Of a stretch of DNA of 37,869 nucleotides, positions 470-29,336 are shown one piece after another (positions within the stretch are counted from its first letter, which is position 1; every line of letters starts with the position of its first letter). This DNA comes from Planctomycetia bacterium. GTDB lineage: Bacteria; Planctomycetota; Planctomycetia; Pirellulales; S012-138. The notes below the pieces were generated by a model. The model had not been told where the DNA came from and did not search any database. It was given only the letters and a program-made list of their open reading frames with translations. Position numbers and translations under genes: made by a program. The stretch spans positions 1 through 37,869 of the forward strand of contig JACOUI010000186.1 in NCBI GenBank assembly GCA_016177915.1, in the 5' to 3' direction.

Positions 470-747
470 GTAGCCGTCGCGCTCCAGAAAGTAGCCCTCA
501 CGCTCCCGCGTGAGGCAGCGCTTCGGCGACCGAAGGATGGCTACTGATTCACGACACGCTGCATCGCACGACGAGATGGCGCCGGGCTTGATCTCGCTGT
601 GGGAGGCGCGCTACGCGCTGCATCTCGCGGAGCGAGATGGCTACAGGCTACACCTCGCGGAGCGGGACGGGCCACGCCCTGCGTCGCGCGGAGCGAGACA
701 GCTACTTCCGCTGCATCTCGCGGAGCGAGATGGCTACAACCGGCTAC
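470..747 (-). repeat. Cluster of GTAG-headed palindromic (REP-like) units
   Basis: This gene-free stretch between nagB and trmL holds about seven imperfect hairpin units. On the plus strand GTAG at 491-494 is followed by CCTCACGC (496-503) pairing with GCGTGAGG (508-515). On the minus strand, units headed by GTAG (read as ctac on plus) end at 544 (CTTCGG/CCGAAG stem), 644, 705 and 737. The units at 621-639 and 714-732 are the perfect palindrome CATCTCGCGGAGCGAGATG, an 8-bp stem with a 3-base loop. Degenerate copies lie at 562-578, 651-669 and 682-699. The plus and minus units at 491-519 and 521-544 form a head-on inverted pair. The layout of GTAG, one or two bases, stem, short loop, stem, then CAGC is that of REP elements recognised by RAYT transposases. 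It may also act as an RNA-stabilising 3' structure for trmL, whose stop codon (744-746) sits in another GTAG. Confidence 0.8.
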
Positions 748-1208
748 ATTGAAAACCCCCACTGCCGCAAGGCCTCGTAGACCGCCACCGCCACGGCGTT
801 GGAGAGATTCAGGCTGCGCACGTCGTCGCGACAGGGAATCCGCAACATTTGCTCGGCGTGCTCTTCCAGGATCGACGGCGGCAGCCCGCGCGATTCGCAG
901 CCGAACACCAGCGCGTCGCCGCGCTCGTAATGAACCGACGTGTATGACCGACCGGCCGTCTTCGAGAACAGCCAGCACCGGCCCGGCAACCGCGCGAGGA
1001 GCTCGTCCCAGGAATCCACCGTTTCCCAGTTCAGTTTTTCCCAGTAATCCAGGCCGGCGCGGCGGAGGTAGTAATCGTCGGTGCGAAAGCCCAGCGGCCG
1101 GATGAGCCACAGCTTCGCTCCCGCCGCCACGCACGTCCGGCCCGCGCTCCCGGTGTTGTAGGGGATTTCCGGCTCGTGCAGGACGACGTGCAGGCAGGGT
1201 TCGTACAT
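744..1208 (-). CDS. trmL: tRNA (cytidine/uridine-34-2'-O)-methyltransferase, SPOUT family
   Basis: TrmL 2'-O-methylates the wobble base of tRNA-Leu isoacceptors with S-adenosylmethionine. It is a small trefoil-knot (SPOUT) enzyme acting as a dimer in the cytoplasm. The 154-residue product matches the family in length. The three SPOUT motifs are visible: EIPYNTGSAGRTC near the N-terminus, ALVFGCESRGLP in the middle, and IPCRDDVRSLNLSNAVAVAVYEAL near the C-terminus, which forms the SAM-binding knot. The start at 1208 gives the usual N-terminus (LHVVLHEPEIPYNTG). No Shine-Dalgarno sequence precedes it. Instead the ATG directly follows a 7-nt tandem array (see 1209-1243). The gene is monocistronic as far as can be seen, and its stop codon TAG lies at the edge of the REP cluster. 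Confidence 0.93.
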   Translation of the reverse strand: MYEPCLHVVLHEPEIPYNTGSAGRTCVAAGAKLWLIRPLGFRTDDYYLRRAGLDYWEKLNWETVDSWDELLARLPGRCWLFSKTAGRSYTSVHYERGDALVFGCESRGLPPSILEEHAEQMLRIPCRDDVRSLNLSNAVAVAVYEALRQWGFSM

Positions 1209-1243
1209 GGAGCAAGGGGCGAGGGATGAGGGGTGAGGACGAG
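1209..1243 (-). repeat. Heptanucleotide tandem leader abutting the trmL start codon
   Basis: On the coding (minus) strand, five consecutive 7-mers run into the ATG: CTCGTCC, TCACCCC, TCATCCC, TCGCCCC, TTGCTCC. The array has no purine-rich ribosome-binding site. The same design occurs before pheT (6016-6057) and the RND exporter (27107-27134). I see nothing else in 1244-1418. Confidence 0.75.
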
Positions 1244-3515: not shown

Positions 3516-4589
3516 ATGGCCCTTTCGCAATTCCTCTCCGAGCTGGAAGCCCTGGTGACGGCGGCGGAGTCGGCCTTCCAATCCGCCGCCGACGCGGCCG
3601 CCCTGGAAACTGCGCGCATCGAGTACCTGGGCGCCAAGAGCGGGCGCATCAAGACGGTGCAGAAGGGCCTGGGCGGGATCGACAAGACGGACAAGCCCGT
3701 CGCGGGCCAGCGGTTCAACGAGGTCAAGGCCCGCATCGAGTCGGCGTTTTCGGCAGCGCAGGAGCGTTGTCAAAACGCCACGGCGGCTGCCGCGGTCAAA
3801 GCCGTTTCGCGCAAGGCGGAAAAGAGCGACGCCGTCATCCCGCCCGGAGCGTTCGATCCGAGCGAAAGCCCACCCGGCTGCCGGTTGCACCTGGGCCGGC
3901 TGCACCCGATTACGCAGACGATCGAGACGCTCAAGGAGATCATGGGCCGGCTGGGGTTCAGCGTGGCCGACGGGCCGGAGATCGAGGACGAGTGGCACAA
4001 TTTCCAGGCGCTGAACATCCCCGCCTCGCACCCCGCCCGCGACCCGCTGGAGAATTTCTACCTCTCCATGGCCGAGGAGACGTCCGGCGCCGGTCCGATG
4101 TTGCTTCGTAGCCAAACCAGCACCGTGCAAATCCGGGTGATGGAGAACCGCCGCCCGCCGGTGCGGATCATCGCGCTGGGGCGGGTTTACCGTCCCGACA
4201 CGGCCGACGCCACGCACTTCCCGATGTTTCACCAGATCGAGGGGCTGCTCGTCGACCGCCAGGTGACAATGGCCGACCTGAAGAGCGTGCTCCGCATGTT
4301 CGCCATGAGCTATTTCGGCGGCGAAGTGCACATTCGCTTCCGGCCGTCGTTCTTCCCCTTCACCGAGCCGAGCGTGGAGGTGGACATGCAGTGGCACGAC
4401 CGCTGGATCGAGATGGGCGGGGCGGGCATGGTCGACCCCAACGTGCTGCGGGCCGTGGGCTACGATCCGGAGGAATTCTCCGGCTTCGCCTTCGGCATTG
4501 GGATCGAGCGCGTCTGCATGCGGCGGCACAACCTCACCGACATCCGAGAGCTGTACAAGAACGACGTGCGGTTTTTGGAGCAGTTCTGA
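3516..4589 (+). CDS. pheS: Phenylalanyl-tRNA synthetase alpha subunit
   Basis: PheS is the catalytic chain of the (alpha-beta)2 class II synthetase that charges tRNA-Phe. The 357 residues comprise an N-terminal coiled-coil arm (about 1-90), with [18 protein letters not shown], and the class II core. Motif 2 includes [11 protein letters not shown] (around residue 238) and motif 3 is [18 protein letters not shown] near the C-terminus. PRP-type contacts and the ending NDVRFLEQF are typical. No Shine-Dalgarno sequence is obvious before the ATG at 3516. The partner gene pheT lies 1.5 kb downstream rather than adjacent, because two Uma2 genes stand between them. The 4590-4753 gap has a short CCCCG/CGGGG hairpin and a TAAAAT (4708-4713) that could be a -10 for the Uma2 pair. 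Confidence 0.95.
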
Positions 4590-4753
4590 TTGAGTCCCCG
4601 GTGAGCGGGGGGCGTCAGGCGGCATCAGGCCCCCGGTGCGTGGTGGTCCGGCCGGCATTTTCCCGTCGCAGCAGTAGCCCGCCGTCCACCTACCGCTGAA
4701 GACCGGCTAAAATGGAATGGGACGTCGACGATGCCTGTCCGCGGAGCCTAGCC

Positions 4754-5356
4754 ATGTCCTCCCTCCCTAAAAAACGCATCACGCCCGAGGAGTACCTGGC
4801 CATTGAGCGCCGGGCCGAGACGAAGAGCGAGTACTATAAGGGCGAAATGTTCGCAATGACGGGCGCGTCGCGTGCGCACAATCTCATCACCGTGAACCTG
4901 GCAAGCGAGCTTCGCAATCGCCTCAAGGGGCGACGTTGCGAGACGTTCGCAAGTGACATGCGCGTCAAGGTATCCCGCTCCGGGCTCTACACCTATCCGG
5001 ACGTTGTGGTGGTGTGCGGCGAACCACGCTTCGAGGACGACCGTGCCGATACCCTGCTCAACCCGACCTTGATCGCCGAAGTTCTGTCGCCCACGACGGA
5101 GAGCTACGACCGCGGCCGCAAGTTCGATCATTACCAATCGCTGAATTCTTTGAAGGAGTACGTCCTCGTCTCTCAGGACCGCTTCAGCGTCGACCTGTTC
5201 CGCCGCCAGCCGGACGGTGACTGGGTTGTCACTGGGATCAAGGACGCTTCGCAGGTCGTCCGATTCACGTCGCTCAATTGTGAAGTCCCCATGTCCGAGA
5301 TTTACCGCCAGGTCGATCTGCCGGCCGGATCGTCCGACCTGGGCGCCGTCGAGTGA
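4754..5356 (+). CDS. Uma2-family (DUF820) PD-(D/E)XK-like protein, copy 1
   Basis: This is a 200-residue member of the Uma2 family, a restriction-endonuclease-like fold that is very abundant in cyanobacteria and planctomycetes and whose biological role is largely unknown. Visible features are the N-terminal TPEEYLAIERRAE helix, YKGEMFAMTGAS, the acidic residue in TYPDVVVV (Asp83), and the core AEVLSPTTESYDRGRK (Glu109, Lys123), followed by the strand EYVLVSQD. These fit the D..E-x-V core of the fold, so a nuclease activity is possible but not shown. The ATG at 4754 is chosen because the next copy has the same start context (GGAGCCT, then ATGTC). The 14-codon upstream extension is not conserved. 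It sits between pheS and pheT on their strand. Confidence 0.9.
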   Translation: MSSLPKKRITPEEYLAIERRAETKSEYYKGEMFAMTGASRAHNLITVNLASELRNRLKGRRCETFASDMRVKVSRSGLYTYPDVVVVCGEPRFEDDRADTLLNPTLIAEVLSPTTESYDRGRKFDHYQSLNSLKEYVLVSQDRFSVDLFRRQPDGDWVVTGIKDASQVVRFTSLNCEVPMSEIYRQVDLPAGSSDLGAVE

Positions 5357-5376
5357 AACAGTCGTGGAGCCTCGCT

Positions 5377-5976
5377 ATGTCGTCCTTCCCCAAAAAACGC
5401 ATTTCGCCCGAGGAGTACCTGGCGATCGAGCGCCGGGCCGAGACGAAGAGCGAGTACTACAACGGCGAGATGTTCGCGATGACGGGCGCGTCGCGCGAGC
5501 ACAGCCTTATTGCCGGAAACATTTTTCGCGTGCTGGCGACTGCCTTGCTGGGCCGGAAATGCGAAATCCACATCAACGACATGCGCGTAAAAGTCTCTCG
5601 CACGGGGTTGTACACGTATCCGGACGTCGTGGTCGCCTGCGGCGAAGCGCGTTACGAAGACGCGCACGTCGACACATTGCTCAATCCGGTGCTGATTGTC
5701 GAGGTTCTCTCGCCGAGCACCGAAATGTACGACCGCGGCGCAAAGTTCCGACAATACCGTGAGACGCCGTCCCTCAAGGAGTACGTTCTCGTGGCCCAAG
5801 ACGCCCACGCCGTCGAGTCGTTCGTTCGCCAACCGAATGGTCAGTGGCTTTTGAAGTCGTGCTACGAACCGGCAGGCGTCGTCCGGTTCGAGTCGGTTGA
5901 ATCTGAAATCCCGATGTCGGAAATCTACCGCCAAGTCGAAATCCCACCCGGCGGGACAGAACCGTCGTCGGCGTGA
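5377..5976 (+). CDS. Uma2-family (DUF820) PD-(D/E)XK-like protein, copy 2
   Basis: This is a tandem paralogue of the preceding gene: 199 residues, roughly two thirds identical by eye, starting 20 bases after its stop. The first 40 residues are almost unchanged (PKKRISPEEYLAIERRAE), and TGLYTYPDVVVACGE, VEVLSPSTEMYDRGAKF and PMSEIYRQVEIPPGG repeat the same motifs. The middle (residues 44-65) and the last third have diverged. The two genes share the ribosome-binding context GGAGCCT, 3-5 bases before ATG. The core acidic residues are kept, so neither copy looks dead. The likely origin is tandem duplication after insertion between pheS and pheT. Function is unknown. Confidence 0.9.
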   Translation: MSSFPKKRISPEEYLAIERRAETKSEYYNGEMFAMTGASREHSLIAGNIFRVLATALLGRKCEIHINDMRVKVSRTGLYTYPDVVVACGEARYEDAHVDTLLNPVLIVEVLSPSTEMYDRGAKFRQYRETPSLKEYVLVAQDAHAVESFVRQPNGQWLLKSCYEPAGVVRFESVESEIPMSEIYRQVEIPPGGTEPSSA

Positions 5977-6015
5977 CCCACCCTGCGACGACATTCGCAG
6001 CCGAATAGATGGCAG

Positions 6016-6057
6016 TCCACACTCCACACTCCCCATTTCGCACTCCGCACTCCCCCC
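6016..6057 (+). repeat. Heptanucleotide tandem leader abutting the pheT start codon
   Basis: Six 7-mers run without a gap into the ATG at 6058: TCCACAC, TCCACAC, TCCCCAT, TTCGCAC, TCCGCAC, TCCCCCC. The tract is pyrimidine-rich with no Shine-Dalgarno sequence. The design matches the leaders of trmL and the RND exporter. Confidence 0.8.
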
Positions 6058-8106
6058 ATGCTCGTCTCCTGGAACTGGCTCAAGGAATACGTGGTTCTCG
6101 ATATGCCCGTCGAGGCGCTCACGACGCGCCTCATGATGGCGGGCTTCAACCACGAAGGCACTTCCGACGTCGAAGGCGACATCGCCATCGACCTGGAGGT
6201 GACCAGCAACCGGCCCGACGCCCTGGGGCACCTGGGCGTGGCGCGGGAGATCGCGGTCCTCTACGACCGGCCGCTGAAGATGCCGCTGGCCCGGCCGGCC
6301 GAGGGGAAGACGCCCGTCGAGAAGCTCACCAGCGTCGCTGTCGAGTGCCCCGACCTTTGCCCGCGGTACACGGCCCGCGTCATCCGCGGCGCGAAGATCG
6401 GCGCGAGCCCCGCCTGGCTGCGGCGGCGCCTGGCCACACTCGGGCTCAAGTCGATCAACAACGTCGTGGACGTGACGAACTACGTGATGATGGAGTGCGG
6501 CCAGCCGCTGCACGCCTTCGACCTGAACCTGTTGCGCGAGAAGCGGATCGTCGTCCGGGAGCCGAAGCGCGGCGAAAAGCTCGTGGCCATCGACCACAAG
6601 ACGTACGAGCTGGAGCCGGGCATGTGCGTCATCGCCGACGCGGAGCGCGCGGTCGGCCTGGGCGGCGTGATGGGCGGCGCCGACAGCGAAATCTCCGACA
6701 AGACGACCGACCTGCTCATCGAATCGGCCCAGTTCGCGCCAGTATCGATCCGCAACACCGCCCGGCGGCTGAAGCTGCACAGCCCCTCGTCGCACCGGTT
6801 CGAGCGCGGCCTTGACCCTGAGGGCATCGAGTGGGCCAGCCGCCGCTGCTGCGAGCTGATCTTGCAGGTGGCGGGCGGCGAACTGGCCGCGGGCGTGATC
6901 GACGTCGGCCAGAAACCGAAGGCCCGCGAAGGGATTGTCTTCCGGCACGCCCAGCTCAAGCGCATGTTGGGGATCGACGTGGACCCGGCCGAGGTCGTCC
7001 GCATCCTGGAGGCCCTGGGCAACCGCGTGAATCGCCTCGACGCTGGAAGGCTGGAAGTCGTGCCGCCAAGCTGGCGGGCCGATTTGGAGCGCGAGATCGA
7101 CCTCGTGGAAGAAGTCGCCCGCATCCACGGCTACGAAAAAATCCCCGAGGACGTGCAGGTGCCGATGGCGGCCAGCAGCAAGAGCGACGAAGAGCGGCTG
7201 ATCGGCAAAATCCGCCGCGCGATGACGGCCGCGGGCTACAACGAGGCGATGACGCTTTCGGCCGTCACGCCGGCCCTGTCCGACGCCTTCAGCCCCTGGA
7301 CGGGCCGCCCGCCGCTCGTGGCCCAGACCCCTGTCATCGAGAACGCCGACACGCTCCGCCGCAGCCTCGTGCCCAGCTTGCTCGCCGCGCGGCAGACGAA
7401 CGAGTCGCTAGGCAACGGGCGGATCGAGCTTTTCGAGATGGCCCGCGTTTATCTGCCGCAGGAGCGTTTTGCGTCGGCGTCGAATGGCGCCCTGCCGGGC
7501 GAGGAGTTGATGCTGTCGCTCACGAGCGGGGGCGACTTCTTTGCCGTCAAGGGGGCGATTGAAGCGCTGGTCGAGGCGCTCAATCCCGCCGCCCGGCTCG
7601 AAGCCCGCGACGTGCCAAGCGAGCTGGCGCCCGCCTGCGGCCTGCTTTCGCCGCGCCGGGCGGCGCTCTATCTGGAGGGCGAGCTTCTGGGACTCGTGGG
7701 CGAAGTTTCCGCCGACGGCCTTTCGCGCTTCGACCTGCGGAACGCGACGACCGTGGCGGAGCTGAAAGTCGCCGTGCTCCTGAAGTTCGCCCAGGTCGTG
7801 ACGAAATACCAGAAGCCGCCGGAATTCCCGGCCATGGTTTACGACGTGAACCTGAAAGTCGGCGAGCCGGTCCGCTGGTCGGCCATCGAGAAAATCGTCC
7901 GCCAGCACGGCGGAAAGCACCTGGCCGGCGTCCGCTTCCAGGAGACCTACCGCAGCCAGAAGCTGGTCGAAGAGGGCAAGAAGAAAATCCTCTTCCAGAT
8001 CAGCTTCCGCAGCCCGGCAGGCACGCTCACGCACGAGCAGGTGAACCAGGACCACGCGCGGATTGTGGAGAAATGCGGGAAGGAACTGGGGGCGGAGCTG
8101 GGCTAA
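6058..8106 (+). CDS. pheT: Phenylalanyl-tRNA synthetase beta subunit lacking the EMAP tRNA-binding domain
   Basis: PheT is the editing and tRNA-binding chain of phenylalanyl-tRNA synthetase. The protein has 682 residues, against about 790-800 in most bacteria. The start (SWNWLKEYV, RLMMAGFNHEG) is normal, but residue ~40 goes straight to IAIDLEVTSNRPDALGHLGVAREIAV. The ~110-residue OB-fold (EMAP-type tRNA-binding) domain that usually lies between is absent. The B3/B4 editing domain (LKSINNVVDVTNYVM, GQPLHAFDL), the B5 domain, the class II-like core with ELFEMARVYLP, and the C-terminal ferredoxin-like anticodon-binding domain (EFPAMVYDVNLKVGE, about residues 590-682) are present. The reading frame is clean, so this looks like an evolved short form rather than a damaged gene. 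Confidence 0.95.
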   Translation: MLVSWNWLKEYVVLDMPVEALTTRLMMAGFNHEGTSDVEGDIAIDLEVTSNRPDALGHLGVAREIAVLYDRPLKMPLARPAEGKTPVEKLTSVAVECPDLCPRYTARVIRGAKIGASPAWLRRRLATLGLKSINNVVDVTNYVMMECGQPLHAFDLNLLREKRIVVREPKRGEKLVAIDHKTYELEPGMCVIADAERAVGLGGVMGGADSEISDKTTDLLIESAQFAPVSIRNTARRLKLHSPSSHRFERGLDPEGIEWASRRCCELILQVAGGELAAGVIDVGQKPKAREGIVFRHAQLKRMLGIDVDPAEVVRILEALGNRVNRLDAGRLEVVPPSWRADLEREIDLVEEVARIHGYEKIPEDVQVPMAASSKSDEERLIGKIRRAMTAAGYNEAMTLSAVTPALSDAFSPWTGRPPLVAQTPVIENADTLRRSLVPSLLAARQTNESLGNGRIELFEMARVYLPQERFASASNGALPGEELMLSLTSGGDFFAVKGAIEALVEALNPAARLEARDVPSELAPACGLLSPRRAALYLEGELLGLVGEVSADGLSRFDLRNATTVAELKVAVLLKFAQVVTKYQKPPEFPAMVYDVNLKVGEPVRWSAIEKIVRQHGGKHLAGVRFQETYRSQKLVEEGKKKILFQISFRSPAGTLTHEQVNQDHARIVEKCGKELGAELG

Positions 8107-16474: not shown

Positions 16475-16573
16475 CGCAAGTGAGCGCGAATGGCGGGCGA
16501 GACGCCTGCCCCACGAAAATGGCAGGCGGGACGCCTACCCCACGAGGAGCGGCAGGCGGGCTGCCTGCCCTAC
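16471..16573 (-). repeat. Cluster of three REP-like palindromic units between convergent genes
   Basis: Units lie at 16491-16515, 16520-16544 and 16551-16573. The last is clean: GGCAGGC (16551-16557), loop GGGCT, GCCTGCC (16563-16569), then CTAC, so on the minus strand it reads GTAG followed by a 7-bp hairpin. The other two have 8-bp stems with one mismatch (GGCGGGCG/CGCCTGCC, GGCAGGCG/CGCCTACC) followed by CCACG. The GTAG of the last unit supplies the TAG stop of the ceramidase-like gene. The cluster may act as a terminator or RNA stabiliser for both converging genes. Confidence 0.75.
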
Positions 16574-17949
16574 GGGCGGAGTTCGTTGAGGAGACGGAGG
16601 GCCGCTTCGGCCAGCATTTCGCCGCCGCCGGGCGCGACGAGCGAGTTCACCGTCTCGTAGCTCCCCTCGGCGAAGGCCTTCTTCGTGGGCACGTAGGCGG
16701 GGTTGTCGTTCGCCAACTCGACGACGAGCGTCGTCTTGAAGGGCGAGGCTTTCTTGATCGCCAGGCCCAGCTCGACGAAGACCTCGCCCGGCAGGGTCAC
16801 AAGGGCCACGTCGTCGGCCAGGCGAAAGGCCTGCACGTCGAACTTCGCCGTTTCGCCCCGAAGCTCAAGGGCCATGATCTTGCAGGCCTCGACCTGGTCG
16901 AGGAACGACAGCTCGCGCGTGCCGACCTTGGCCAGGCGCTCGCGGGCCTCTTCGATTTTTTCCGGCGGGAATTTTTGCAGCGGGACCTCGACCGTCGCAC
17001 AGCGGACGGCCAGCCGGGGCTTTTTTTCTTGCAGCCTGGGCAATTCGGAACGGACGGTTTCCGCCAGCAGCGCGCCGATTTCGGGCGTCTTGCGGCGCTC
17101 CTTGGTTGTCACGTCGACGTGGTTGATGTCGCCGCAGGTGCCCGCGCCGAAGAACGACACGGCCTGGTCGCCCAGCTCTTTTTGTAGGGCGTCGCTCAAG
17201 TACCTGGGATAGTCGCCGGAATACTCCGTGCCGCCTGTCGTATCCAAGTGCATGGCGAAAACAGTGACGATGGCCGCCGTCTTGCCGCCGGACACGAACC
17301 GCAACAGGCCCACGTCGGGGTCGATCGGCCCGGCCGGGCGAATGATGTCCGGATTGAGCGCGCCGGGATTGAACCGCACCGTGCCGTCTTTCATGTGAAA
17401 GCGGCGGTTGAACGAGAGGCGCGATTCCTGCCCCGCGCCGGCCGACAGTTTCGCCGGCCGGGCGTTTTTCTGGGCCGTGCGGATCGCCTCGACGAGCTTT
17501 TCGACAAGCTGCGCCGGGTAGTCGACCTTTTCGAACGGGTCGCTGCCGTTCTTGGCGACGGCCTCGTCGTGGAAATAGTTCCGCAGCACGCCGGCATAGA
17601 GCGGGCCGGTGTGGCTGTGCGTGGCCGAGATGGCGATGTTCTCGGCCGGGATGCCGGTTTCGTTGGCGGCGCGCCGGCGGGCCTCGGGACCGACGCTCTG
17701 CGCGATGCCGATCAAATCGCAAAAAACGAGGGCGGCCTCAACGTTGCCCTGCTTGAGGACGAGGGCCTTGGCATAGAGCGGGTCCTTGACGCCCGTGCTG
17801 ACGCGCTCGCTAAAGTAGCCGCTCATGCGGTAGGGCACGGGCGGGGTGATATCGACGACGGCGGCGCCGGCGGAAAAATCGTCGGCCTGGAGCCGTGAGT
17901 CAGCAGACAGACTGCAAAGGACCGCCAGGCATACAACTCGGACGCACAT
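16570..17949 (-). CDS. Neutral/alkaline ceramidase-like hydrolase, secreted
   Basis: The 459-residue protein has an N-terminal signal peptide (about 1-22, hydrophobic CLAVLCSLSA then LQADDF). It belongs to the neutral/alkaline non-lysosomal ceramidase N-terminal-domain family. Visible motifs are the start of the fold GAAVVDITPPVPYRMSGY, the zinc-ligand motif ISATHSHTGPLYAG, and HLDTTGGTEYSGDYPRYLS, matching the family's catalytic-site region, plus LVTLPGEVFVELG and ELANDNPAYVPT near the end. True ceramidases are ~650-750 residues with a C-terminal Ig-like domain that is missing here. Planctomycetes carry many such short paralogues whose substrate is unknown, so amide or ester hydrolysis outside the cytoplasm is the safe call. 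It converges with the third Uma2 gene. Confidence 0.85.
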   Translation of the reverse strand: MCVRVVCLAVLCSLSADSRLQADDFSAGAAVVDITPPVPYRMSGYFSERVSTGVKDPLYAKALVLKQGNVEAALVFCDLIGIAQSVGPEARRRAANETGIPAENIAISATHSHTGPLYAGVLRNYFHDEAVAKNGSDPFEKVDYPAQLVEKLVEAIRTAQKNARPAKLSAGAGQESRLSFNRRFHMKDGTVRFNPGALNPDIIRPAGPIDPDVGLLRFVSGGKTAAIVTVFAMHLDTTGGTEYSGDYPRYLSDALQKELGDQAVSFFGAGTCGDINHVDVTTKERRKTPEIGALLAETVRSELPRLQEKKPRLAVRCATVEVPLQKFPPEKIEEARERLAKVGTRELSFLDQVEACKIMALELRGETAKFDVQAFRLADDVALVTLPGEVFVELGLAIKKASPFKTTLVVELANDNPAYVPTKKAFAEGSYETVNSLVAPGGGEMLAEAALRLLNELRP

Positions 17950-27106: not shown

Positions 27107-27134
27107 AGCCAAAATCCACGATCCAAAATTCTCC
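27107..27134 (+). repeat. Heptanucleotide tandem leader abutting the RND exporter start codon
   Basis: Four 7-mers end exactly at the ATG: AGCCAAA, ATCCACG, ATCCAAA, ATTCTCC. They are preceded (about 26996-27060) by a C-rich, TCC-rich tract of similar flavour. There is no Shine-Dalgarno sequence. This is the third example in the window of this arrangement. Confidence 0.7.
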
Positions 27135-29336
27135 ATGTCCCCCACGCCGGCCCAGGCCCTTTCGGAAACCCTCGTCGCCTGGCGCTGGCCGCTCTTGGCG
27201 CTGGGGGCGGTCCTGGCCGCGGCGTCTCTCTGGCCGGCGTCGCGATTGGGCTTCGACCGCTCGATCGAGGCGATGTTCGCGCCGGACGATCCGCTCTTGC
27301 CGCCCTATCATCAGCTCAAGCGCACGTTCGGCGGCAACGAAGTCGTGCTCGCCGCTTACGTCGATGCCGATCTGATGACCGTGCCGGGGCTGGCGCGCGT
27401 GCAGGCCCTGACGGAGCGGCTCGGCAAGGTCGAAGGCGTCCGCGCCTCCCTGAGCCTCACCAGCACGCCCGCCGGCACCAACGTCGATTCGCTCGGCCCG
27501 AAGTTCATGGAGCTGATGGAGGGCTACGTTGTTTCGGCCGATCACCGCACGGCCGGCGTCGTCTGCATCCTCCACCCGCAGCCCGACGGCGACCGCCGCA
27601 CCGCCACGATCCGCGAGCTTCGCGCCGTCGTCGAAGGGCACAACCCGCCGGGCGTCCTGGCCGGCGAGCCGGTGATGGTCATCGAGGGCTTTCAGGCAGT
27701 GGAGGACGACGGCTCGCGCCTGGGTTTGCTCTCCACGCTCCTCTTAATGGCCGTCATCCTGCTCTGCTTTCGCAGCGTCCGCTGGATGGTCCTGCCGATC
27801 GCCGTCGTGCAGCTTGCGCTCCTCATGACCAAGGCCCTGCTCGTCACGAGCCGCATGCGCCTGAGCATGGTCAGCTCGATGCTGTGGGCGATCGTGACCG
27901 TCGTGGGCATCGCCACCGTCGTCCACATCATCATGGCCTTCCGCGAGGGGCGCAAATCCGGCGCCGCGCCGCCGGAGGCGCTCGCGCTGGCCGGCCGGGC
28001 ACTGGCGTCTGCGATTCTTTGGAGCGTGCTGACCACCGCCGCGGGATTCGGCTCGCTCCTGGCCGCGTCCGTCGGCCCGGTCCACGACTTCGGCCTGATG
28101 ATGGCCTTGGGCACGCTCCTGGCCATGGCGGCGATGGCCTTCGTCATCCCCGGCTTGGCGCTGGCCGGCCGCATCGACGCCGACCCGAAGCGCGTGTTCG
28201 GCGAAGGGCGGCTCGATGCCCTCCTCGTGCGCCTGCTGGAGGGTTTGCTCCGCCGCCCCAAAACGATCGCCGTGATTCTGGCCGTCCTGTCGGTCGCCGG
28301 CGCGCTGGGAAACGCGTTTCTGGACGTTGAAACCGATTTTACGCGCAACTTCCGCGAGTCCAGCAGTGTGGTTCGATCATACCGGCTCGTCGAGGCAAAC
28401 CTGGGCGGGGCGGGCGTGTGGGACGTCATGCTTCCCGCGCCCGACGTTCTCGACGACGCCTATCTCAAGCGCGTCCGCCGTCTCCAGGAGCGCCTGCGGC
28501 AAGACGTGCCCGGCCTCACGAAAACCCTGAGCCTGGCCGACGTCGTGGACGCCGCTCCCGGCGCCGCGGCCCTCTTGCCCACAAAACTCAAGATCGCCTA
28601 CCTCAAGCAGTCGCTGCCCGCCCTCGTCGATTCGCTCCACGGCCGCGACCCGGACACCGGCTGCTACTACGCGCGGATCATGCTCCGCGCCCGCGAACGC
28701 CAGCCCTCGCGCGAAAAACAAAACTTGATCCTCGCGGTCGAGCGCATCGGCCGCGAAGAGTTTCCGCCCCGGGACGGCGACCCCCTGACCGGCGCCCAGA
28801 CGACCGGCTTCTTCGTCCTCCTGGCCAGCCTCATCGAGAGCATGGTCCGCGACCAGTGGGTGACGTTCAGCATCGCCTCGGGCGCGATCTACCTGATGAT
28901 GCTGGTGGCGGTGCGCAGCTTCCGCCTGGCGGCCATCGCCATGGTGCCCAACGTCGTGCCGATCCTGGTCATCACCGGCGCGATGGGCTGGCTGGGCGTG
29001 AAGATCAACATGGGCGCGGTGATGATCGCGGCCGTGAGCATCGGCATGTCGATCGATTCGTCGATCCACTATTTGATCGGGTATCAGCGGCTGCGGGCGT
29101 CGGGGCACGAGTCGATCGAGGCGCTGCGGCGCGTGCAGGAGACCGTGGGCCGGGCGGCGAGTCTTTCGACACTGGCCCTGATCGTCGGCTTTTCGGCGCT
29201 CGTGGTCAGCGAGTTTGTGCCGACGATCTACTTTGGCTCGCTGGTGAGCCTGGCGATGCTGGGGGGCCTGTGCGGGAACGTCGTGTTCCTGCCGCTGCTT
29301 TTGCACTTGTTCGGCAAGGGCGACGTGCGGTCGTAG
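27135..29336 (+). CDS. RND/MMPL-family inner-membrane exporter
   Basis: The 733-residue protein has two sterol-sensing-like RND halves. Each has an extracytoplasmic loop domain (about 35-195 and 400-550) and about six membrane segments. Helices are evident from LGLLSTLLLMAVILLCF, MVLPIAVVQLALLM and IVTVVGIATVVHIIMAF in the first half, and from FSIASGAIYLMMLVAV, VPNVVPILVITGAMGWLG and MIAAVSIGMSIDSSIHYLIG in the second. GMSIDSSIHYL is the conserved helix with acidic or serine residues used in proton relay. Such proteins export lipids, hopanoids or hydrophobic compounds. The substrate cannot be told, since no membrane-fusion or lipid genes are adjacent. Start: ATG directly behind the heptamer leader. 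Confidence 0.88.
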   Translation: MSPTPAQALSETLVAWRWPLLALGAVLAAASLWPASRLGFDRSIEAMFAPDDPLLPPYHQLKRTFGGNEVVLAAYVDADLMTVPGLARVQALTERLGKVEGVRASLSLTSTPAGTNVDSLGPKFMELMEGYVVSADHRTAGVVCILHPQPDGDRRTATIRELRAVVEGHNPPGVLAGEPVMVIEGFQAVEDDGSRLGLLSTLLLMAVILLCFRSVRWMVLPIAVVQLALLMTKALLVTSRMRLSMVSSMLWAIVTVVGIATVVHIIMAFREGRKSGAAPPEALALAGRALASAILWSVLTTAAGFGSLLAASVGPVHDFGLMMALGTLLAMAAMAFVIPGLALAGRIDADPKRVFGEGRLDALLVRLLEGLLRRPKTIAVILAVLSVAGALGNAFLDVETDFTRNFRESSSVVRSYRLVEANLGGAGVWDVMLPAPDVLDDAYLKRVRRLQERLRQDVPGLTKTLSLADVVDAAPGAAALLPTKLKIAYLKQSLPALVDSLHGRDPDTGCYYARIMLRARERQPSREKQNLILAVERIGREEFPPRDGDPLTGAQTTGFFVLLASLIESMVRDQWVTFSIASGAIYLMMLVAVRSFRLAAIAMVPNVVPILVITGAMGWLGVKINMGAVMIAAVSIGMSIDSSIHYLIGYQRLRASGHESIEALRRVQETVGRAASLSTLALIVGFSALVVSEFVPTIYFGSLVSLAMLGGLCGNVVFLPLLLHLFGKGDVRS

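Follow-up and report, generated by a model that had tools for sequence, protein, structure and literature searches.

Heptanucleotide tandem arrays in a planctomycete genome meet the edges of open reading frames with one strand end

The stretch of planctomycete DNA analysed here (37,869 nucleotides, "the window" in what follows) is contig 116 of a draft genome of 6.03 Mb in 387 contigs, assigned to Pirellulales (Planctomycetota) by the relatives of its pheT. Three of its genes, pheT, a trmL-like methylase gene and an exporter gene, are preceded by tracts with a 7-nt period. The gene identities had been proposed in a first-pass annotation made from the letters alone, and they are supported by Pfam domains. 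The genes and their tracts are as follows:

744..1208, minus strand: trmL-like SpoU methylase gene (Pfam SpoU_methylase)
1206..1243, minus strand: heptamer array of the CCTCANC type, reaching the trmL ATG, C-rich strand as sense; lag-7 score 12.0
6013..6057, plus strand: heptamer array of the ACTCCNN type, C-rich strand as sense; lag-7 score 18.6, TRF period 7
6058..8106, plus strand: pheT, phenylalanyl-tRNA synthetase beta (Pfam B3_4, B5, tRNA_synthFbeta, FDX-ACB)
27107..27134, plus strand: weak degenerate heptamer tract of the AATCCAA type, 5' of the exporter ATG; lag-7 score 6.4
27135..29336, plus strand: RND/MMPL-family exporter gene (Pfam MMPL)

The tract in front of pheT reads AGTCCAC ACTCCAC ACTCCCC ATTTCGC ACTCCGC ACTCCCC, followed by CC and then the ATG. 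Its periodic core covers 6013-6053 and ends 4 nt short of the ATG at 6058. None of 5000 dinucleotide shuffles equals its lag-7 segment score of 18.6 (P <0.0002), the other periods from 4 to 12 score 4.6 at most, and the array is listed by TRF with period 7. The trmL array is also distinct from shuffled sequence (1206-1238 on the minus strand, score 12.0, P=0.0004). The exporter tract consists of about four degenerate units of the AATCCAA type; it scores 6.4 (P=0.0048) and is absent from the TRF output. This means that two of the three arrays first described in the window are borne out and that the third is weak, although its family also forms longer arrays elsewhere in the genome.

The window holds other repeats and features of its own. 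A 30-31-bp tandem repeat of about 4-5 copies, CTCGCGGAGCGAGATGGCTACA-like and partly palindromic, lies directly downstream of trmL (557-738), and a 29-bp repeat present three times, with the palindrome GGCAGGCGGGACGCCTGCC, lies at 16489-16574, at the 3' end of the minus-strand gene 16570-17949. An Rfam search of the window matched no family. Two adjacent genes of the Uma2 family (putative restriction endonucleases) occupy 4712-5976, between pheS (3516-4589) and pheT; in many relatives, unlike the window, pheS and pheT are direct neighbours. An association of arrays with Uma2 genes was considered and rejected, since only two Uma2-like genes were found among 1198 in 1.54 Mb, both of them the pair between pheS and pheT.

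Those 1.54 Mb, with 1198 genes called with a hexamer model, were the sample for a survey of the genome. Nine of the surveyed contigs, besides the window's own, were picked for containing ACTCCGCACTCC, which slightly inflates array density and is independent of the position of arrays relative to genes. The non-coding tandem arrays comprise 72 at period 7, 65 at its multiple 14 and 34 at most at any other period. Period-7 arrays are mainly intergenic, with 72 of 79 non-coding. The unit families in the genome are ACTCCNN, AATCCAA, CCACYAR, CCTCTAG, TCCTGAC and CAATTNN, and several of them, such as CAATTNN, contain no GG run. Mismatches between units cluster in about two of the seven positions, beyond the expectation under uniform mutation: the two most variable columns have identities of 0.55 and 0.67, against 0.62 and 0.73 expected.

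For the analysis of position, arrays were oriented by their C-rich strand, set by the count of C versus G (a weak criterion for AT-rich units), and an array end was scored as a contact at positions from -15 to +5 nt relative to an ORF edge. The null placed each array randomly inside its own intergenic region. Among 28 strong arrays, the 3' end of the C-rich strand lies at an ORF edge in 20 and the 5' end in 2, with 6.2±2.0 contacts expected from random placement. The 3' contacts fall on 13 stop codons and 7 start codons. At a lower threshold, 34 of 73 arrays make the 3' contact (15 starts, 19 stops) and 7 the 5' contact, against a null of 15.2±3.2; about half of the weaker arrays have no ORF contact. 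When only genes of at least 600 nt and contacts within 8 nt are counted, there are 15 starts and 20 stops, against 7 contacts at the wrong end. Gene starts in this survey are our own calls; stops do not depend on the choice of start, and the effect is at least as strong there.

At a start codon, then, it is the C-rich strand that reads into the gene, and at a stop codon, equivalently, the G-rich strand that leads out of it; in both cases the ORF edge is met by the 3' end of the C-rich strand, equal to the 5' end of the G-rich strand. Of the stop contacts, 9 of 21 and 3 of 18 have some or all of the stop codon within the periodic tract. Flanking genes are tandem, convergent or divergent in the same proportions as in the background. 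Past the array ends, the 3' side has a little more pyrimidine than the 5' side, a difference too small to be decisive. The idea that every ORF edge has a G-outward skew was rejected as a source of the pattern, as this skew is absent at array-free stops and small at starts.

The same positional rule is seen in G012, a Pirellulales genome from a different family, where the loci were picked by CCAACCT arrays and contact meant within 10 nt. The 3' end lies at an ORF edge in 30 of 42 arrays and the 5' end in 4, against a null of 9.6±2.4; by edge, the contacts are 19 stops and 13 starts. The units of G012 differ from those of the window's genome, and the rule is equal. Among 99 relatives in the order, the difference is in the same direction and is a weak trend (7 versus 3 of 24), and in 400 kb of Fischerella DNA from two cyanobacterial plasmids it is again weak, with few arrays (6 versus 2 of 12, within 30 nt). 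In the plasmid of Fischerella sp. NIES-4106, period 7 is the commonest non-coding tandem period, with 12 arrays, and the units CCACTAA and CCCTGTT resemble planctomycete ones although the phyla are unrelated.

The first reading of the window was that the arrays form a leader device for translation initiation independent of a Shine-Dalgarno (SD) sequence, each ending in exact register before its ATG. The abutment at starts is indeed non-random, and MacGregor has proposed translational regulation for TAACTGA arrays (PMC4679880). Also, C-rich arrays finish 0-8 nt ahead of the ATG, and none of 16 array-abutting starts has an SD-like motif, as had been said of the three in the window. However, such a motif is found in only 34% of 1082 genes (background 14-15%), so that about 66% of genes lack it regardless; its absence has little weight and was rejected as evidence for special initiation. 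The register is not exact, as the gap varies over roughly 0-8 nt genome-wide and members of one family stand at different phases to the ATG. Starts are also only half of the pattern. Stop codons are met no less often, in mirrored orientation, by arrays whose sense strand is the G-rich one, and this mirroring at starts and stops counts against an initiation-specific leader. The check first suggested, 7-nt autocorrelation before start codons together with the distance to the ATG, points the same way in part: the distance is non-random, but mean lag-7 autocorrelation is higher after genes (z 4.4) than before them (z 1.0). Averaged over all upstream regions the autocorrelation is not elevated (z about 1), since arrays are borne by a few per cent of genes only, and segments must therefore be counted in place of the mean. 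We regard the leader device as very improbable, and an effect on translation at individual genes may still exist. The better half of the original interpretation was its alternative, a mobile or replicating heptamer that favours a site, with its link to cyanobacterial heptamers; the favoured site is the ORF edge of either kind, with strand polarity.

Closely related genomes show how quickly the units change. The ACTCC family is present in 23 of 197 Pirellulales genomes, patchily even within genera; for example, one genome has ten ACTCC sites and its congeners have none. CCAACCT arrays occupy about 25 sites in G012 and none in its congener G029, with coding DNA that is mostly 77-91% identical in aligned pieces. 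Where gene ends could be aligned, G029 in some cases carries a degenerate tract or a unit unlike that of G012; downstream of the gene at L287:257, for instance, the G012 sequence is (GGTTGGA)n and that of G029 is CGGGGGCTGGAGTCTGGGGGCTGG. At the threshold used, no array could be detected in G029 for 8 of the 10 G012 boundary arrays. Persistence of array sites between the two genomes, over 24 edges, is suggestive by eye and not significant (P=0.55). Turnover of units between congeners is thus shown in the aligned sequences, and persistence of sites is not. At one locus (L271 6323-6512), the flanks of a G012 CCAACCT array match two different G029 contigs (C335 and C664), so that the array may lie where a rearrangement took place or where a contig ends.

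The region upstream of pheT was also compared across the order. Heptamers are found there in 9 of 98 Pirellulales species, with unrelated units (for example CATTTAG, ACTGAAA, CCCTATC, CCCACTC, and CCAACCT with CCTGACC), and periods other than 7 and 14 are found at no more than 2 of the 98 loci each. At several of these loci the spacer from the pheS stop to the pheT ATG holds an outward pair. The pheS-pheT spacer is 178 nt with arrays against 71 nt, and a separate comparison gives medians of 101 and 58 nt; spacer length and array presence are confounded, so that insertion and replacement are not separable from length.

Ordinary slippage, that is, neutral tandem duplication anywhere between genes with an attachment to ORFs that is only apparent and due to short spacers, could account for arrays that are intergenic and vary fast. 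Chance contact is in fact fairly common in short spacers, with 6-17 contacts under the null. Against this, the observed contacts outnumber those from random placement in these same spacers, at one array end only, period 7 alone is in excess, and a single unit family turns up at tens of unlinked places in a genome, which local slippage does not give. Slippage by itself is therefore quite unlikely.

Arrays also occur in pairs. Over three samples, opposite-strand pairs in one intergenic region point outward in 20 cases, which represent 19 distinct sites because one was sampled twice, and inward in 1; a further 12 pairs are on the same strand (tandem). The two arms of a pair frequently share a unit family, and in some regions long stems result. 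Long inverted arrays fill some intergenic regions, with z of -9.6 (L178 2582-2657) and -7.1 (L161 14548-14670) against mononucleotide shuffles. These regions are what would be expected of a functional boundary element, in which G-rich arrays past stops and C-rich arrays before starts would be selected as hairpin arms, G-quadruplex or i-motif tracts or protein-binding sites with a role in stabilising transcripts or keeping them apart. The repeated gain of unrelated heptamers at pheT in 9 of 98 species fits such selection, as does the report by Rehm et al. (PMC4692102) that transcripts begin or end with raised frequency at their repeats and that the positions carrying these repeats are conserved. 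However, the majority of arrays are single and stemless, several families such as CAATTNN lack the GG runs, persistence of sites between the congeners is not significant, and arrays show no bias in the orientation of the genes around them. Such an element is thus improbable, if less so than slippage. A near-perfect long inverted repeat (AGGGTGGGCACCGCCCACC...GGTGGGCGGTGCCCACCCT) that fills another intergenic region (L178 3036-3182) is not a heptamer array.

The explanation that we tentatively favour, with confidence close to even, is that the intergenic heptamer arrays of the genome are the product of a strand-polar process at the DNA level, largely insensitive to the sequence of the unit and limited by coding sequence. 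Units would be added with fixed polarity, and dispensable DNA between the array and the ORF would be lost until coding constraint halts the encroachment; any effect of the array on translation would be incidental. Contact with ORFs at a single end of the array requires a polar process. Arrays stop at starts and stops alike, for which selection on coding sequence is the simplest reason, since DNA machinery is blind to the reading frame; symmetry of starts and stops with respect to the gene is expected of a DNA process limited by selection and not of an RNA function. Two variants would leave an identical anatomy. In the first, the C-strand would be extended toward the gene and growth would end at the ORF edge. 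In the second, an end located at the ORF edge would be extended away from the gene by G-strand repeats.

Some observations count against this polar DNA-level process. Arrays lengthen the spacers in which they lie, so that simple overwriting is insufficient. Unit variants in long CCAACCT arrays, inspected by eye for the direction of growth, show no consistent gradient, and for the 99 loci from relatives and the cyanobacterial plasmids the polarity amounts to no more than a trend.

One candidate for the writer of the arrays is a telomerase-like or DRT10-like reverse transcriptase that would add templated repeats to DNA ends at gene edges. DRT10 does make RNA-templated tandem-repeat DNA (PMC12632851), with short units of fixed polarity like those of the arrays, and outward pairs with the same unit are the remnant expected of end extension followed by joining. 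The products of DRT10 are free cDNA with 9-nt repeats (PMC12632851), whereas the arrays here are chromosome-internal. In addition, several unit families per genome would require several templates, and no match to the reverse transcriptase family PF00078 was found in the window's genome, G012 or G029 (drafts 92-99% complete), with matches in control genomes. An origin by reverse transcription is accordingly held to be highly unlikely.

Tandem heptamers are known from other bacteria. The STRR heptanucleotides of heterocystous cyanobacteria are tandem heptamers with several families per genome, as are the arrays described here. Families derived from heptamers are also mentioned, for Chloroflexus among others, in a survey of prokaryote satellites. 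Literature searches found no account of such arrays for planctomycetes.

The nearest counterparts are the heptamer repeats described in 2015 by Rehm et al. (PMC4692102), GGGAATC in Xanthomonas and GGGGA(C/T)T in Nostoc, which lie nearer the 5' neighbouring ORF irrespective of its orientation. Like the arrays here, they are intergenic, have the 5' side of the G-rich strand nearest the ORF in either orientation, stand antisense upstream of starts and sense after stops, sometimes overlap stop codons and form inverted pairs. The arrays of the window's genome are not of the GGGAATC or GGGGA(C/T)T unit with G-quadruplex potential, and CCCGAAT arrays of G012 come near a unit of this type. The planctomycete arrays differ in belonging to another phylum, in their many unit families, including AT-rich ones without G-quadruplex runs, and in contact within a few nt of the ORF, compared to a class of 0-50 bp in Rehm et al. 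(PMC4692102).

The TAACTGA direct repeats of Beggiatoaceae, cyanobacteria and Bacteroidetes (MacGregor 2015, PMC4679880) are likewise heptamers in 2-6 copies that are often split by variant units, and in the largest class the array stops 1 nt short of a start codon, usually with no ribosome-binding site. They consist of a single unit, with 147 of 170 toward starts and 12 toward stops (PMC4679880), whereas many units occur here and stops are at least as frequent as starts. The orientation rule (Xanthomonas and Nostoc; PMC4692102) and heptamers that end at starts (Beggiatoaceae; PMC4679880) are thus already published; new are the planctomycetes, the independence from unit sequence, the near-contact with ORF edges and the evidence against an initiation-specific role. 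It is possible, though doubtful, that several phyla share an undescribed process, independent of reverse transcriptase, by which strand-polar heptamer arrays with nearly any unit are written into intergenic DNA as far as ORF edges, and that, as part of this same claim, a given unit is dispersed within one genome and replaced between sister species. If so, the heptamers reported separately at start codons and at stop codons would be a single phenomenon. The question would shift from a role in translation to what writes the arrays, with which polarity and why in sevens, and congeners that evolve fast, as well as genetically tractable lineages like Xanthomonas and Nostoc, offer a way to test it. 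The STRR sequences, the G-rich repeats of Xanthomonas and the TAACTGA repeats of Beggiatoa would then be joined under one positional rule that is independent of the unit.
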